From positions 1-62,797 of the forward strand of contig CANRFJ010000017.1 in the NCBI GenBank assembly GCA_947629865.1: 62,797 nucleotides of DNA, given 5' to 3'. A program made the position numbers and the translations under genes. The notes below the pieces were generated by a model. That model was not told the origin of the DNA and searched no databases. It saw only the letters and a list, made by a program, of their open reading frames with translations. Shown one piece after another: positions 44,936 to 61,441 of this stretch. Each line of letters opens with the position of its first letter. Positions within the stretch are counted from its first letter, which is position 1. The stretch is from an uncultured Lachnospiraceae bacterium. GTDB taxonomy: Bacteria > Bacillota > Clostridia > Lachnospirales > Lachnospiraceae.

Positions 44936-46546
44936 TCAGCTCAGCGCCTGACGTTTTCTCGCCATCTCGTCGCTGTCGAGATATTCGTCATAGGTCGTTA
45001 CCTTGTCTATCATGCCGTTGGGCGTAAATTCAATGATGCGGTTGGCAATTGTCTGGATAAACTGGTGATCCTGTGAGGTAAAGAGCACCACGCCCGGAAA
45101 TTTTATCAGTCCGTTGTTGACGGAGGTAATCGATTCCATATCCAGATGGTTGGTCGGCTCATCCAACATCAGAACATTCGATCCGAGCATCATCATCTTG
45201 GAGAGCATAACCCGCACCTTTTCGCCGCCGGACAGGACATTGACCTTCTTCAGGCCGTCGTCGCCCCGAAAGAGCATACGTCCCAGAAAGCCGCGCACAT
45301 AGGTGGCGTCTTTTTCCGGTGAAAACGGCATCAGCCAGTCCACAATAGTGTCGTTGCTGTCAAAGTAGGGCGTGTTGTCTTTCGGGAAATAGGAATTGGA
45401 GGTGGTGATACCCCATTTGTAATCTCCCTCGTCCGGTTCCATCTCGCCCGCAAGAATCTGGAACAGCGTGGTGGCGGCGATACCGTAAGAACCGACGAAG
45501 GCGATCTTATCGTCATGGCCGACGGTAAAGGAGACATTATTGAGCACTTTTTCCCCGTCAATGGTCTTGGTGAGGTTTGTGACAGTCAGAACCTCGTTTC
45601 CGATCTCCCTGTCCGGCTTAAAGTCCACATAGGGATATTTCCGGCTGGAGGGGCGGAGCGTCTCCAGTTCTATTTTTTCCAGCGCGCGCTTGCGGGAAGT
45701 GGCCTGTTTGGACTTGGAGGCATTGGCGCTGAACCGCTGGATAAATTCCTGCAGTTCTTTGATCTTTTCCTCTTTCTTTTTGTTGGCCTCCTTCATCTGT
45801 TTGATCATCAACTGGCTGGATTCATACCAGAAATCGTAGTTGCCGGCATAAACCTGCATCTTGCCGTAATCGAGATCCACGGTGTGGGTGCAGACCTTAT
45901 TCAGAAAATAGCGGTCGTGGGACACGACGATGATCGTGTTCTCAAAGTTGATGAGAAACTCCTCCAGCCAGCGGATGGAGTCCAGATCCAGGTGGTTGGT
46001 CGGCTCGTCCAGAAGAAGGATATCCGGATTGCCGAACAGAGCCCTGGCAAGGAGAACCTTTACCTTGTCGGTGTCGGGAAGTTCGCTCATGAGTTTTGCG
46101 TGTTCGTCCGTCTCGATTCCCAGGCCGTTGAGGAGAGAAGCGGCGTCCGCCTCTGCCTCCCAGCCGTTCATGGCGGCGAAGTCGGCCTCCAGCTCGCTGG
46201 CGCGGATACCGTCCTCGTCGGAGAAATCCTCCTTGGCATAGATGGCGTCTTTTTCCTTCATGATATCATATAGCTTCTGGTTGCCGGCAATGACGGTATC
46301 CAATACGACTTCGTCATCATATTTGAAGTGATCCTGTTCCAGCACGGAAAGCCGCTGTTCCGCCCCTAGGATAATCTCGCCGGTGGTGGGTTCCAGCTCA
46401 CCGGACAGAATCTTCAGGAAGGTGGATTTTCCGGCGCCGTTGGCGCCGATAATGCCGTAGCAGTTTCCCTCCGTGAATTTTATATTGACCTCCTCAAAGA
46501 GCGCTTTTTTTCCAAAACGCAGTGAAATGTTGCTTGCCTGTATCAT
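44936..46546 (-). CDS. ykpA: ABC-F ATPase of the YkpA/YbiT type
   Basis: A 536-aa protein with two ATP-binding domains and no membrane part, acting on the ribosome. The first P-loop is intact (GANGAGKST). The second is degenerate (GSYGIAATTLF, no Lys), as I recall for YkpA-type members. Both LLDEPTNHLD and MLDEPTNHLD Walker B elements are present. The linker between the domains is about 50 residues and helical. The switch reads FTSQDHQF, where related proteins have His in place of Gln. Confidence 0.87.
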   Translation of the reverse strand: MIQASNISLRFGKKALFEEVNIKFTEGNCYGIIGANGAGKSTFLKILSGELEPTTGEIILGAEQRLSVLEQDHFKYDDEVVLDTVIAGNQKLYDIMKEKDAIYAKEDFSDEDGIRASELEADFAAMNGWEAEADAASLLNGLGIETDEHAKLMSELPDTDKVKVLLARALFGNPDILLLDEPTNHLDLDSIRWLEEFLINFENTIIVVSHDRYFLNKVCTHTVDLDYGKMQVYAGNYDFWYESSQLMIKQMKEANKKKEEKIKELQEFIQRFSANASKSKQATSRKRALEKIELETLRPSSRKYPYVDFKPDREIGNEVLTVTNLTKTIDGEKVLNNVSFTVGHDDKIAFVGSYGIAATTLFQILAGEMEPDEGDYKWGITTSNSYFPKDNTPYFDSNDTIVDWLMPFSPEKDATYVRGFLGRMLFRGDDGLKKVNVLSGGEKVRVMLSKMMMLGSNVLMLDEPTNHLDMESITSVNNGLIKFPGVVLFTSQDHQFIQTIANRIIEFTPNGMIDKVTTYDEYLDSDEMARKRQALS

Positions 46547-46756: not shown

Positions 46757-48574
46757 ATGAGACTAGAAAAAGGAAGACCTTTTCCGTTAGGGGTAATAAA
46801 GGCAGGCGAAGACCGGGTACAGGCAGCCATATGGCTTCCGGGCAGATCCTCCTGCAAACTGTGTCTGTACCGGGATGGGAAACTATTCAAAAAAATCGAG
46901 ATGTTTTCGATGAAAGAGGCGGGAATGAAGGATATTTTTTCCGTGGTTCTCACCGGCAGTGACGTGGCAGAGCAGCTGGAGGGCGTGGAATATGACTTCC
47001 TCGCGGATGGAAAAAAAGTTCCGGACGCCTATGCAAGGGCTGTGGCCGGAAGGGAAAAATTCGGGAAAAAACAGGGAAAAGTCCGCGGCTGTATGGATTT
47101 TGCCGATTTTGACTGGAGCGGTGAAAACTGGAGAAGGCTTCCGGTCGACGAAATGATCCTGTACCAGTGCCATGTGAGGGGATTTACGAGACATGCCAGT
47201 TCCGGCGTGGAATTTCCGGGCACCTTTGCGGGGCTGCAGGAGAAGATTCCTTATCTGAAGGAGTTAGGCGTCAATACCCTGCTTCTGCTCCCCGTGTATG
47301 ATTTTAATGAAAAAATGGAGCAGACAAATGAGAAGGGTGAGAAAAAGACCAATTACTGGGGGTACACCGGAGACGCTTTTTACCTGGCTCCCAAGGCCGG
47401 CTACTGTTCGGGGCGGACAAGCCCTTCCACAGAGTTTAAATCGCTCATAAAGGCGCTGCACCAGAACGGTATGAATATTGTGCTGGATATGTATTTTGTG
47501 GGAAGGACGCCGGAGTTTATATTGCAGTGCCTGCGGTATTATGCACTGAACTTCCACATAGACGGATTTCGCATTAACCAGGACTGCATGGACACCAGGT
47601 GGCTGCACCGCGATCCCCTTCTCTCCCATGTAAAACTGCTGGGAAATAACTGGGGCGAGCAGCCGGCAGGGGATTCGGACACAGTATGTATGGAGATGAA
47701 CGATGGTTTTCTGATAGATGCAAGGCGCTACATGAAAAGCGACGAGGGCCAGACGGAGAATTTTTACCGGCGCTTCCGAGAACAGCGCAACGGCGTCGGC
47801 GTGATTCATTACATCACACAGAATAACGGGTTTACGCTGCGGGATCTGATTTCTTATGATGTGAAGCACAACGAGGCCAATGGGGAGAGAAACCAGGACG
47901 GCACAGAGTACAATTACAGCTGGAACTGCGGGGCGGAGGGCCCGACAAGGCGGAAAGCCGTTCTCAGAATGCGTCAGAAGCAGGAGCGCAATGCCTTTGT
48001 CATGCTGCTGCTTGGGCTGGCGGTTCCGATGCTCCTCGCGGGCGACGAGTTTGGAAATTCACAGAAGGGAAACAACAATGCCTACTGTCAGGACAACAGC
48101 ACGACCTGGCTGAACTGGCGTCTTCTGGATAAAAACAGGGAGACCTTTGATTTTGCGCGCGGACTGATCGCATTTAGAAAGAACCACCCTTTGTATCACC
48201 AGGAAAAAAATTTCACGGGCATGGATAACCGTGGACTGGGGGCGCCGGATGTGTCCTGTCATGGCAAAAAGCCGTGGGTGACGGATTTTTCCTATTACAG
48301 CCGTGAACTGGGAATTTTGTACTATGGCGGTTATTTTGGAGCGGAGAGCCTGTATTTTGTCTTTAATTTCCACTGGGACAGCCATGACTTTTATTTGCCC
48401 ACGCTGGAAGCGGGGCAGAGGTGGAGACTGCTTCTGGATACCTCTGTGGAGGAGAGAGAAAAAGAGGCGGGATATATAACCGAGAAGTACCGGATGGCGC
48501 CCCGCTCGATTGCCGTGTTTGAGGGCGTATGTACCCGGCCGGGGAAATCCGGCCGGAGAAAAAAGAATCAATAG
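46757..48574 (+). CDS. GH13 (GlgX/pullulanase-like) protein lacking all catalytic acidic residues
   Basis: A 605-aa protein with a CBM48-like N-terminal domain (about 1-100), a GH13 barrel and a C-terminal beta domain. It lines up with glycogen-debranching enzymes through LYQCHVRGFT, WGYTGDAFYLAPKAGY, SYDVKHNEANGE and LAGDEFG. The nucleophile position of GFRFD is Asn274 (GFRINQD), the acid/base Glu position of KLIAEPW is Asn297 (KLLGNNW), and the HD of TAHDGFT is Asn356-Asn357 (TQNNGFT). The motif I Asn-His is also gone (LDMYFVG). The frame is otherwise intact, so this looks like a maintained pseudoenzyme, possibly a glycogen-binding or regulatory protein. Confidence 0.85.
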   Translation: MRLEKGRPFPLGVIKAGEDRVQAAIWLPGRSSCKLCLYRDGKLFKKIEMFSMKEAGMKDIFSVVLTGSDVAEQLEGVEYDFLADGKKVPDAYARAVAGREKFGKKQGKVRGCMDFADFDWSGENWRRLPVDEMILYQCHVRGFTRHASSGVEFPGTFAGLQEKIPYLKELGVNTLLLLPVYDFNEKMEQTNEKGEKKTNYWGYTGDAFYLAPKAGYCSGRTSPSTEFKSLIKALHQNGMNIVLDMYFVGRTPEFILQCLRYYALNFHIDGFRINQDCMDTRWLHRDPLLSHVKLLGNNWGEQPAGDSDTVCMEMNDGFLIDARRYMKSDEGQTENFYRRFREQRNGVGVIHYITQNNGFTLRDLISYDVKHNEANGERNQDGTEYNYSWNCGAEGPTRRKAVLRMRQKQERNAFVMLLLGLAVPMLLAGDEFGNSQKGNNNAYCQDNSTTWLNWRLLDKNRETFDFARGLIAFRKNHPLYHQEKNFTGMDNRGLGAPDVSCHGKKPWVTDFSYYSRELGILYYGGYFGAESLYFVFNFHWDSHDFYLPTLEAGQRWRLLLDTSVEEREKEAGYITEKYRMAPRSIAVFEGVCTRPGKSGRRKKNQ

Positions 48575-48759: not shown

Positions 48760-48835
48760 ACGTTACCTCCGTTTGTCATGTTATTCTGTTATGGAAACGG
48801 TATTAGTATTTACAGTCAGGAGGATTTTATACGGA

Positions 48836-49285
48836 ATGATTGTTTTCAAAATTGAAAATATAAAGGCGTTTATGGCGCATTTATTTGCCGGAGAGATGTT
48901 TGACCGGTTTCATGTAAGCGGCTGTGCGGTGACTACCTTTACCACGTTTGAGACCGACGGGAGGAGCCGGCCGGACTGGTTCGACACGGACGAAAGGGTG
49001 GAAGATGACAGCGGGCTTGTCTGGTGGCGGCAGCTGAAGCCGTTTATATTTTCGCTTATAAAAGGGAAAAAAACGCCAGAGAAGCTGCGGATTGATTTCT
49101 GCCACTATATGGACAACGGCGACATGGGCTCCCTGCGGGTGAATTACGAGAGAGACGAACTGCTCCTGTACACCGGCTACATGGAAAAAATATTTTCCAT
49201 GGATCGCGAAAAACAGCAGGAGTGGGACGAAAAATGCAAAATATTTCTCGAAAAAAATGGAATTGCTAGCACTCAACTTGATTGA
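48836..49285 (+). CDS. DUF5721-like hypothetical protein, 149 aa
   Basis: It begins MIVFKIENIKAFMAHLFAGE and continues with FHVSGCAVTTFTTFETDGR, patterns I associate with a Lachnospiraceae DUF family. AGGAGG lies 12 bases before ATG 48836, a loose spacing. The last codons run into the CIRCE operator of htpG. No function is known. Confidence 0.6.
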   Translation: MIVFKIENIKAFMAHLFAGEMFDRFHVSGCAVTTFTTFETDGRSRPDWFDTDERVEDDSGLVWWRQLKPFIFSLIKGKKTPEKLRIDFCHYMDNGDMGSLRVNYERDELLLYTGYMEKIFSMDREKQQEWDEKCKIFLEKNGIASTQLD

Positions 49286-49292
49286 GTGCTAA
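49266..49292 (+). promoter_or_regulatory. CIRCE element (HrcA operator)
   Basis: CTAGCACTC, a 9-bp spacer, then GAGTGCTAA: a near-perfect CIRCE inverted repeat (consensus TTAGCACTC-N9-GAGTGCTAA). It ends 7 bp before the -35 box of htpG, which implies heat-shock control by HrcA. Its first part overlaps the end of the upstream gene. Confidence 0.93.
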
Positions 49293-49299
49293 TTTTTTC

Positions 49300-49328
49300 T
49301 TGACATTGAAACCGGAGAGTATTATGAT
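49300..49328 (+). promoter_or_regulatory. htpG promoter
   Basis: TTGACA at 49300 and TATGAT at 49323 with a 17-bp spacer, directly downstream of CIRCE. Confidence 0.85.
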
Positions 49329-49371
49329 AACAGATAGAGAAAAAAATGGTACAGGATTTGGAGGTATTGAT

Positions 49372-51423
49372 ATGACAAGTGAACAGGGAAATTTAGCGAT
49401 TAATTCAGAGAACATATTTCCAATTATTAAGAAATGGCTGTATTCCGACCACGATATTTTCATACGGGAGGTTGTCAGCAACGGGTGTGACGCCATTACC
49501 AAATTGAAAAAACTGGAGATGATCGGGGAGGCGGAGCTGGCGGACGATTACAAACCGAAAATCGAGGTAGTGGTGAATCCGGAGGAAAAGACCATAACCT
49601 TTACGGACAACGGCCTTGGCATGACGGCGGACGAGGTGAAGGAGTATATAAACCAGATCGCCTTTTCCGGAGCGGCGGATTTTCTGGAGAAGTATAAGGA
49701 CAAGGCCAGTGAGGAGCAGATTATAGGACATTTTGGACTCGGTTTCTATTCCGTATTCATGGTGGCGGATTCCGCGGAGATCAATACGCTCTCCTATCAG
49801 AAGGGAGCGGAGGCGGTTCACTGGGAATCCGACGGCGGACTGACTTTCGAGATGGACGGCAGCGACAGGGATACGGTGGGCACGGAGATTATTCTGCACC
49901 TGAACGAGGACAGCTATGAATTTGCCAATGAGTACCGCGTCCGCGAGGTGCTGGACAAGTACTGTTCCTTCATGCCTGTGGAGATTTTTTTGACAAAGGC
50001 CAATGCGGAGCCGGAGTACGAGACGATTCCGAGCGAGGAGGTGACGGAGGAGGATACCGTCATCGAGGAGATCGTCGAGGAGCCGGAGAAGACGGCCGGG
50101 GACTCCGCGGAGGAGGATAAGAAGGAAAAGAAAGAGCCGGTCAAAAAGACAAAGATACTGAAACGGCCGGTCTCTCTGAGCGATACGACGCCGCTTTGGA
50201 CAAAGCACCCGAATGAGTGCAGCGAGGAGGACTACAAGGATTTTTACCGCAAGGTGTTCCGGGATTACAGGGAGCCGCTGTTCTGGATCCATCTGAATAT
50301 GGATTATCCGTTTAACCTCAAGGGAATCCTGTATTTCCCTAAGGTAAATCTGGAATATGAGAATTTGGAGGGCGTCATCAAATTATACAATAATCAGGTG
50401 TTTATCGCCGATAATATAAAGGAAGTGATTCCGGAATTTCTGCTGCTCTTAAAGGGCGTGATCGACTGTCCGGATCTTCCTCTGAACGTGAGCCGGAGCG
50501 CCCTGCAAAACGACGGCTTTGTGAAAAAGATCTCGGATTATATCACAAAGAAGGTGGCGGATAAGCTGTCCGGCATGTGCAAGACGGAGCGGGAGGACTA
50601 CGAGAAATACTGGGACGACATCAGCCCGTTTATCAAGTTCGGCTGCCTGAAAGATGAGAAATTCAAAGAAAAAATGAAAGACTATATTCTCTTTAAGGAT
50701 CTGGACGAAAAATACAGCACGCTGGCCGAGTATCTGGAGACGCTGCCGGAGCCGGAACCGGAGGTCGAAGTAGTGAAAGAGGGCGAGGAGAATCCGGAGC
50801 CGGAGGAGACGGAGCCTCCGAAGAAGACGGTATACTATGTGACCGATTTGCAGCAGCAGAGCCAGTATGTGAAGATGTTCCGCGACCAGAATATGAATGC
50901 GGTTGTGCTTCTCCACAATATTGACCAGCCGTTTGTGTCATCTCTCGAAAACGGGGACGACAATGTGAAATTCCAGCGGATTGACGCCGATTTGACAGAG
51001 GCCTTCAAAGAGGAGGCGGATGACGGGGAACTGAAGGAGAAGACGGAGTCCCTGAAGGAACTGTTCCGGAAGGCGCTGGGCAAGGAAAACCTGGAGGTGT
51101 CGGTCGAGAAACTGAAGGATGAGAAGGTCTCCGCCATGATTACGCTGTCCGAGGAAGCCCGAAGGATGCAGGATATGATGAAGATGTATGCGGCGAACGG
51201 TCTGGGAGGCATGGATATGCCGGAGACGGGACAGACACTGGTGCTGAATGTCAATAATGCGCTTGTGCAGTATGTGCTGGAGCACAGAGACGGCGACAAT
51301 ACGGAGATGTTCTGCAGACAGCTGTATGACCTGGCGATGATCAGCCACCGCCCGCTGGAGCCGGACAAGATGACCGAATTTATTGCCAGAAGCAATGAGA
51401 TTATGCTGATGTTAGCGAAATAA
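49372..51423 (+). CDS. htpG: Chaperone HtpG (Hsp90) with acidic linker insertions
   Basis: A 683-aa Hsp90. The N-terminal ATP site has NGCDAITKLKK, DNGLGMT and GHFGLGFYSVFMV. ATG 49372 follows TTGGAGGTATTGAT; the open frame to 49282 crosses the promoter and cannot be the start. After about residue 218 there is a charged insertion of about 45 residues (EEVTEEDTVIEEIVEEPEK, then KKEKKEPVKKTK) exactly between the N and middle domains, where eukaryotic Hsp90 has its charged linker and most bacterial HtpG have little. A second acidic stretch (PEPEPEVEVVKEGEENPEPE) lies near residue 465. The terminator lies at 51453-51506. Confidence 0.95.
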   Translation: MTSEQGNLAINSENIFPIIKKWLYSDHDIFIREVVSNGCDAITKLKKLEMIGEAELADDYKPKIEVVVNPEEKTITFTDNGLGMTADEVKEYINQIAFSGAADFLEKYKDKASEEQIIGHFGLGFYSVFMVADSAEINTLSYQKGAEAVHWESDGGLTFEMDGSDRDTVGTEIILHLNEDSYEFANEYRVREVLDKYCSFMPVEIFLTKANAEPEYETIPSEEVTEEDTVIEEIVEEPEKTAGDSAEEDKKEKKEPVKKTKILKRPVSLSDTTPLWTKHPNECSEEDYKDFYRKVFRDYREPLFWIHLNMDYPFNLKGILYFPKVNLEYENLEGVIKLYNNQVFIADNIKEVIPEFLLLLKGVIDCPDLPLNVSRSALQNDGFVKKISDYITKKVADKLSGMCKTEREDYEKYWDDISPFIKFGCLKDEKFKEKMKDYILFKDLDEKYSTLAEYLETLPEPEPEVEVVKEGEENPEPEETEPPKKTVYYVTDLQQQSQYVKMFRDQNMNAVVLLHNIDQPFVSSLENGDDNVKFQRIDADLTEAFKEEADDGELKEKTESLKELFRKALGKENLEVSVEKLKDEKVSAMITLSEEARRMQDMMKMYAANGLGGMDMPETGQTLVLNVNNALVQYVLEHRDGDNTEMFCRQLYDLAMISHRPLEPDKMTEFIARSNEIMLMLAK

Positions 51424-51513: not shown

Positions 51514-51586
51514 AGCTTCGAAAGGGACTTGAACCCTCGACCCCTTCATTACGAGTGAAGTGCTCTACCAACTGAGCTATCGAAGC
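51514..51586 (-). tRNA. tRNA-Thr (anticodon CGT)
   Basis: A 73-nt cloverleaf on the minus strand: the acceptor stem pairs GCTTCGA with TCGAAGC; D-arm AGCTCAGTTGGTAGAGC; anticodon loop CTCGTAA between CTTCA and TGAAG, giving CGT (Thr, codon ACG); T-arm GAGGGTTCAAGTCCCT. CCA is not encoded. Confidence 0.95.
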
Positions 51587-61295: not shown

Positions 61296-61310
61296 ACTTG
61301 AAACACAGGA

Positions 61311-61423
61311 AATCTTCAGGGCGGGGTGCAAGTCCCCACCGGCGGTAGAGCCCGCGAACGGTATAAGGCCGTTGATTCGGTGAGATTCCGAAGCCGACAG
61401 TATAGTCTGGATGAAAGAAGATG
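61311..61423 (+). promoter_or_regulatory. FMN riboswitch (RFN element)
   Basis: Conserved RFN blocks occur in order: ATCTTCAGGGCGGGGTGCAA, GTCCCCACCGGCGGTA, AGCCCGCGA, GGTGAGATTCCGAAGCCGAC and AGTCTGGATGAAAGAAGAT. The two ends pair (ATCTTC with GAAGAT). It controls ribD: FMN binding would favour the terminator that follows. Confidence 0.97.
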
Positions 61424-61441
61424 GATATTTTTGATGTATAA

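Follow-up and report, generated by a model that had tools for sequence, protein, structure and literature searches.

A GlgX-type pseudoenzyme of the Lachnospiraceae and its possible role in glycogen metabolism

What could a bacterial cell gain from a debranching-type protein whose catalytic acids have all been replaced? The question is raised by a gene in the window analysed here, a stretch of 62,797 nucleotides from an uncultured Lachnospiraceae bacterium (assembly GCA_947629865.1, contig CANRFJ010000017.1). The initial annotation, made from the letters alone, had read Asn at all three catalytic positions, noted the additional loss of the motif I His, and argued from the Asn triad that the product was a selected pseudoenzyme, perhaps a regulator that binds glycogen, and not a decaying gene. 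The features on which the following discussion draws are collected in Table 1.

Table 1. Features of the predicted pseudoenzyme gene and of its neighbours, in window positions.
Feature	Position	Strand	Basis
GlgX-like pseudoenzyme CDS, 605 aa	46757..48574	+	open frame; GlgX/ISA homology
N-terminal CBM48-like sandwich region, residues 1-125 (end set by us)	46757..47131	+	PF02922; model strands
Motif I region, residues 240-252; motif I His replaced by G249	47474..47512	+	alignment
N274 at nucleophile position	47576..47578	+	alignment, model
N297 at acid/base position	47645..47647	+	alignment, model
R323, equivalent of maize ISA1 R504 (border lobe)	47723..47725	+	mapping; R in 98% of 141
N357 at third catalytic Asp	47825..47827	+	alignment
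Residues 361-396, with border-lobe equivalents N372 and W389 (limits set by us)	47837..47944	+	
Residues 426-455, with border-lobe equivalent N439 (limits set by us)	48032..48121	+	
Residues 485-512, signature D490..G495.PD.S.HG...W507, between barrel and C domain	48209..48292	+	
Divergent ABC-F ATPase gene, upstream (context)	44936..46546	-	NF011646, 667.3 bits, under curated cut-off 762
DUF5721 gene, downstream (context)	48773..49285	+	PF18988, E 4.3e-29; cluster near 15 of 141 loci
htpG, HSP90 chaperone (context)	49282..51423	+	NF003555, 660.7 bits, over cut-off 371

The predicted structure of the protein (pLDDT 93.2, pTM 0.92) contains an N-terminal sandwich, a (beta/alpha)8 barrel and a C domain, and together with the GH13_11 motifs of the sequence this places it in the fold and lineage of GlgX, TreX and the bacterial isoamylases (E. 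coli 2wsk, S. venezuelae 7u3d, Sulfolobus 2vr5). The frame is open, as had been read from the letters, and the fold is complete in the model. The N-terminal sandwich matches the CBM48 family PF02922 weakly (residues 10-86, E 0.0038, 17.9 bits, under the cut-off of 22.4). In contrast to GlgX and TreX, the window protein has neither the catalytic acids nor the motif I His and is about 44 residues shorter between motifs I and II; its TIGR02100 (GlgX) score of 321.6 bits is about half the curated cut-off of 640.9. Alignment with GlgX confirmed N274 in place of the Asp nucleophile, N297 in place of the Glu acid/base, N357 in place of the third Asp and G249 in place of the motif I His. As judged from these features, the protein is best read as a pseudoenzyme of the GlgX/isoamylase type (GH13_11).

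Homologues drawn from 150 genomes of the same family and from named genomes (best 80 loci) gave an alignment of 210 sequences including the query: 141 lack the catalytic set, 68 are of the active type, with D/E/D intact in every one, and one (L053) ends before motif IV. The catalytic columns were read relative to the motifs; active GlgX carries a variable insert after motif II. The nucleophile is missing from 140 of the 141 (the exception, L117, has D at this place and lacks the other two acids), the motif I His is gone in 139, and all three acids are lost in 96, a count that includes one sequence (L203) cut off before the third position. The replacements are heterogeneous, with 98 residue combinations among the 141 when gaps are counted and the truncated L203 row is included. 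N (46), D (21) and N (70) are the most frequent residues in the three columns, and with the nucleophile lost no replacement has thus become fixed. Across the Lachnospiraceae, conservation of the Asn triad was not borne out: NNN occurs in only 4 of the 141 sequences against 1.8 expected, two of the four coming from one genus. Selection for the Asn triad itself is thereby rejected, and with so many combinations in the group the triad is not what was kept, so the original argument for selection from the triad falls. A change from Asp to Asn would be a single G-to-A step. The Asn triad is incidental; the finding is the loop loss and the group of proteins that share it.

The stretch that follows the motif I His lines the active site in GH13. 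From D244 to G270, spanning motifs I to II, there are 27-29 residues in all 141 pseudoenzyme-type sequences and 72-77 in all 68 active ones, with no intermediates in the 209 rows. Judged on the alignment, this missing stretch of about 44 residues, which the initial annotation does not mention, is a better sign of a single origin than the Asn triad. A 116-row tree, which took 46 of the 141 pseudoenzyme-type sequences (the query, the six that follow it and then every third full-length one of the rest) and all 68 active sequences, has long end branches, and one unrooted branch with support 100 and length 0.76 parts the active from the pseudoenzyme type. Two pullulanases were tried as a root; their rows were 15% and 30% filled and their branch had a length of 3.11, and the unrooted split was kept with the root unused. 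The simplest account is probably one loss of catalysis at the base of the group, in which the acids would have disappeared together with the active-site stretch that follows motif I, and after it drift of the dead site. As a separate observation, the active GlgX sequences of Phocaeicola intestinalis (L050) and an Atopobiaceae MAG (L057) group in the tree with Lachnospiraceae and rumen Clostridia records, which reflects either gene transfer or assembly contamination.

That the group was selected and is not decaying has stood, on grounds other than the triad: the catalytic centre is lost throughout the 141 relatives, the gene is widespread, and purifying selection acts on close pairs of this pseudoenzyme type. 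Three close within-genus pairs with unsaturated dS, none of which includes the window species, gave dN/dS values of 0.040, 0.086 and 0.062 and are the basis of the selection claim. The other pairs, including that of the window gene with L002 of the same genus (dN 0.205), had a dS of at least 1.8 or were saturated, with finite ratios of 0.04-0.13. Internal stops were found in G033 and G069 by two counts and in G076 and G104 by one count only; the best match is stop-free in the remaining genomes listed with the gene. The three close pairs show no relaxed selection, the frame of the window gene is open, and 39 columns are invariant among the 63 diverse members of alignment A1.

The pseudoenzyme gene occurs in 125 of the 150 family genomes: 123 copies were read directly (some cut by contig ends), one is a contig-end fragment (G147) and one bears an insertion (G130, locus L254), where the match is partial and the DNA shows a pseudoenzyme-type protein whose motif III and motif IV regions are separated by a long insertion. 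Among the 25 genomes without it, three (G004, G048, G053) have only a long-loop GlgX and 22 gave no match. No second place above 371 bits was found in any of the listed genomes, so the gene looks single-copy. In an order-wide draw, with at most five first-look candidates scored per genome, the 63-member profile (A1) found a one-piece match of at least 612 bits in 31 of 33 family genomes and a full-length match in none of 213 order genomes outside the family, 28 of which had partial or split matches of at most 385 bits; the G256 fragments and a G293 match with a broken frame were left unclassed. Named records with such genes, 18 rows among the best 80 loci, include Velocimicrobium, Anaerocolumna, Eubacterium sp., uncultured Roseburia, and Lachnospiraceae or Clostridia MAGs. 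The pseudoenzyme type was found here only in Lachnospiraceae and in records so labelled or near them.

What the group has kept is distributed unevenly over the protein. Retention, defined as the mean over sites at least 95% invariant in active GlgX and scored in the 141 within region limits set by us, is 9% in motif I, 49% in motif II, 32% in motif III, 21% in residues 305-345 and 68% in motif IV; it reaches 97% over 14 sites in residues 361-396 and 92% over 16 sites in residues 426-455. These last two regions carry the equivalents of N561, W578 and N628 of maize ISA1. Together with R504, whose counterpart is R323, these residues are described as forming the border lobe; they lie more than 12 A from the catalytic site, and their variants are reported to have no detectable activity (PMC12510319). 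All four are identical in the query (R323, N372, W389, N439), with frequencies among the 141 of 98%, 99%, 85% (W in 120 of 141) and 99%. Of the four, only W578 is named in that account as contacting glucan, in the secondary site SBS2 (PMC12510319). A further segment, residues 485-512, exceeds its counterpart in active GlgX in conservation (mean information 2.24 against 1.35 bits), its W507 being present in 138 of 141 pseudoenzyme-type and 31 of 68 active sequences; D490, P497, S500, H502 and W507 do not vary across the 63 aligned rows. In the model the segment precedes and reaches into the first strand of the C domain, and as ISA1 is described with a second surface site at the interface of catalytic and C domains (PMC6243121), this segment could likewise be a glucan site. 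For CBM48, glucan binding is treated as not demonstrated in isoamylase-type enzymes in the accounts consulted (PMC12510319; PMC6243121). Control by c-di-GMP as in Streptomyces GlgX, where the motif ExR(x)6R is placed in the N domain (PMC9530166), was considered and rejected, the motif being found in the first 90 residues of 0 of the 63 A1 members.

Which enzymes accompany the protein was read from the same genomes. Over cut-off, GlgA is present in 146 of the 150, GlgP in 143, type I pullulanase in 36 and GlgX in 25. Long-loop GlgX, called at a TIGR02100 score of at least 335 bits and with the active-site motifs read in some (L204-L210, L256-L260), occurs in 45, of which those 25 pass the curated cut-off. 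Among the 125 carriers, 42 have a long-loop GlgX and 83 do not; 23 of these 83, G130 among them, have a type I pullulanase over cut-off, and 60, several of them incomplete and the window genome among them, have neither. Based on these counts, the pseudoenzyme shows no apparent dependence on an active GlgX. The window genome (98% complete) encodes GlgA, GlgP and two GlgB over cut-off, the branching enzyme having been counted in this genome only. Two further GH13 proteins encoded there have triads that appear intact (DGWRLD/AEH/NHD and DGIRLD/GEV/NHD). The genome yielded no GlgX-type protein other than the query, no type I pullulanase over cut-off and no GDE_C match. Its branch-removing enzyme is perhaps a GH13 of 686 aa at C1:125.8k (L212). 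In a review of gut commensals, two glgX homologues are listed for Blautia obeum (PMC10395257).

On balance, and by a narrow measure, the protein is probably a non-catalytic alpha-glucan-binding protein of glycogen metabolism. Branched alpha-glucan, that is glycogen, would be bound via the retained border-lobe surface and perhaps also via the conserved patch that lies between the barrel and the C domain; the bound protein could organise glycogen, or recruit or shield it for glycogen enzymes. A similar role has been proposed for non-catalytic ISA2 and for dead ISA1 variants, which are reported to affect the state of plant glucans (PMC12510319). The glycogen-binding regulator of the initial annotation is a plausible reading of the sequence, and it gains indirect support from the retained border-lobe residues. 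However, these residues may be kept for folding alone, and they are conserved in active GlgX too and needed for activity in maize; the CBM48 match is weak and no glycogen gene recurs among the neighbours. Likewise, 23 of the 25 genomes without the gene have GlgA over cut-off, whereas the gene is present without GlgA over cut-off in G042 and G064 and without GlgP in G007, G041 and G065. Co-occurrence with glycogen synthesis proved uninformative as a test, GlgA being over cut-off in 146 of the 150 genomes. As 83 of the 125 carriers have no long-loop GlgX, a partner, if there is one, is not generally GlgX; better candidates would be GlgP or glycogen synthase, both encoded in almost every one of these genomes, or the branching enzyme.

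A bolder form of the glycogen-binding proposal can be offered only tentatively. Here the Lachnospiraceae would have evolved, independently of plants, a non-catalytic isoamylase that needs no active isoamylase as partner, a scaffold that grips glucan with its catalytic channel removed, its border-lobe site kept and a new site at D490-W507, and that sets the architecture of glycogen or access to it in most genera of this large gut family.

Alternatively, and with a smaller though not negligible probability, the fold has been reused outside glycogen metabolism, where it binds another ligand or the products of adjacent genes (TraX and DUF5662) or serves them as a scaffold, with D490-W507 as the new site. 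The heightened conservation of residues 485-512 would fit such a reuse, as would the gene neighbourhood, surveyed at 141 loci, most with about 1.2-1.5 kb of flank. A DUF5662 gene lies near 63 loci (51 within 100 nt on the same strand) and TraX near 32 (30 within 100 nt), and no glycogen gene is among the recurrent neighbours. Other recurrent clusters are ABC-type ATPases (54 loci), DUF1292 (31), UvrD-like (24), LuxS (23), TrpS (20), sugar-binding-protein-like (16), exonuclease-III-like (15), DUF5721 (15) and HtpG (10), with smaller ones at 4 to 8 loci. The names DUF5662, TraX, DUF1292 and LuxS each come from the Pfam match of a single representative, and DUF5721 from that of the copy in the window; for the UvrD, TrpS, sugar-binding and exonuclease clusters the names are our own reading of the sequence letters. 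Against this reuse, the neighbours change from genus to genus, no TraX or DUF5662 gene lies within 10 kb of the window gene, GlgA is over cut-off in 123 of the 125 genomes with the gene, and W389, the equivalent of the glucan-contacting Trp, is W in 120 of 141 sequences. Gene context is thus neutral on a glycogen role, with TraX and DUF5662 as the main rival lead. In 12 loci the pseudoenzyme gene has both of them nearby, and in examples such as L007, L018, L023, L024 and L040 TraX is directly downstream of it and followed by DUF5662, an order that possibly represents an ancestral operon. Control of the pseudoenzyme gene by RNA was discounted, all Rfam matches at gathering threshold in the window lying elsewhere; among the window's RNA features are an FMN riboswitch at 61308-61426 (+, 119.3 bits) and a tRNA gene at 51514-51586 (-).

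Another possibility, an improbable one, is an obligate subunit like plant ISA2, which would form a heteromer with an active GlgX or pullulanase of the same cell and tune its activity. ISA2, the non-catalytic partner of ISA1, is likewise a GH13_11 protein that lost its catalytic residues and conserved its fold, and it too was kept by selection across a whole lineage (PMC12510319); in the present group the loss runs through 141 proteins. The 42 carriers with a long-loop GlgX and the 23 others with a type I pullulanase could supply such a partner. However, the remaining 83 carriers show no long-loop GlgX and 60 of these, several of the genomes being incomplete, no type I pullulanase over cut-off either. 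The window genome belongs to the 60 and yielded no active isoamylase-type partner; with GlgA, two GlgB and GlgP present and no intact GlgX, type I pullulanase or GDE_C found, its protein is not simply an ISA2-like partner of GlgX. ISA2 is also described with an additional N-terminal beta-sandwich domain, and as lacking SBS2 while keeping another glucan site (PMC12510319). In contrast, residue 1 of our model aligns to residue 1 of GlgX, leaving no extra domain, and the W578-type residue of SBS2 is kept. In PDB profile comparison the E-value is 3.3e-66 to ISA2 against 4.9e-128 to ISA1.

Residual enzyme activity, with changed or relocated catalytic residues, appears very unlikely. A genome with GlgA, two GlgB and GlgP and no canonical debrancher found should debranch by means of another protein, and BmaN1 is described as an active GH13 with His as its third residue (PMC5347038). 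BmaN1, however, keeps the nucleophile and the acid/base, whereas 140 of the 141 sequences described here have lost the nucleophile, and the two other GH13 proteins with apparently intact triads in the window genome could act on branches. Slow decay of a pseudogene, into which the lost catalytic residues, the long end branches and the few internal stops would fit, can in practice be dismissed in view of the low dN/dS of the three close pairs (0.04-0.09), the stop-free frames of the other listed genomes and the 39 invariant columns.

A non-catalytic function of the glucan-binding kind has its precedents. Among the catalytically dead missense variants of maize ISA1 (su1 alleles), proteins without detectable activity are reported to differ in their effect on alpha-glucan solubility (PMC12510319). 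Those variants carry their mutations in the border lobe and have intact catalytic acids, whereas the pseudoenzymes described here show the reverse. In bacterial glycogen metabolism, GlgD is similarly a regulatory relative of an enzyme, described as the regulatory subunit of GlgC in some bacteria, although it concerns another enzyme and another step (PMC10395257). No description of the present group was found among the titles and abstract openings of the best-matching open-access papers. Non-catalytic GH13_11 proteins are thus known from plants, and the group described here differs from them in its lineage, in the stretch that was lost, in the parts that were kept and in usually having no active GlgX beside it.

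For the annotation of these genomes, the group carries a risk of misreading: all 63 A1 members match TIGR02100 at E 1e-20 or below, which invites counting them as debranching enzymes, although in 83 of the 125 carrier genomes no long-loop GlgX was seen. The route by which glycogen is debranched in such cells becomes a testable question. In plants, the role of non-catalytic isoamylases in starch structure is still debated, and a bacterial lineage in a similar state, often without an active isoamylase, would offer a simple system in which to study such a non-catalytic function.
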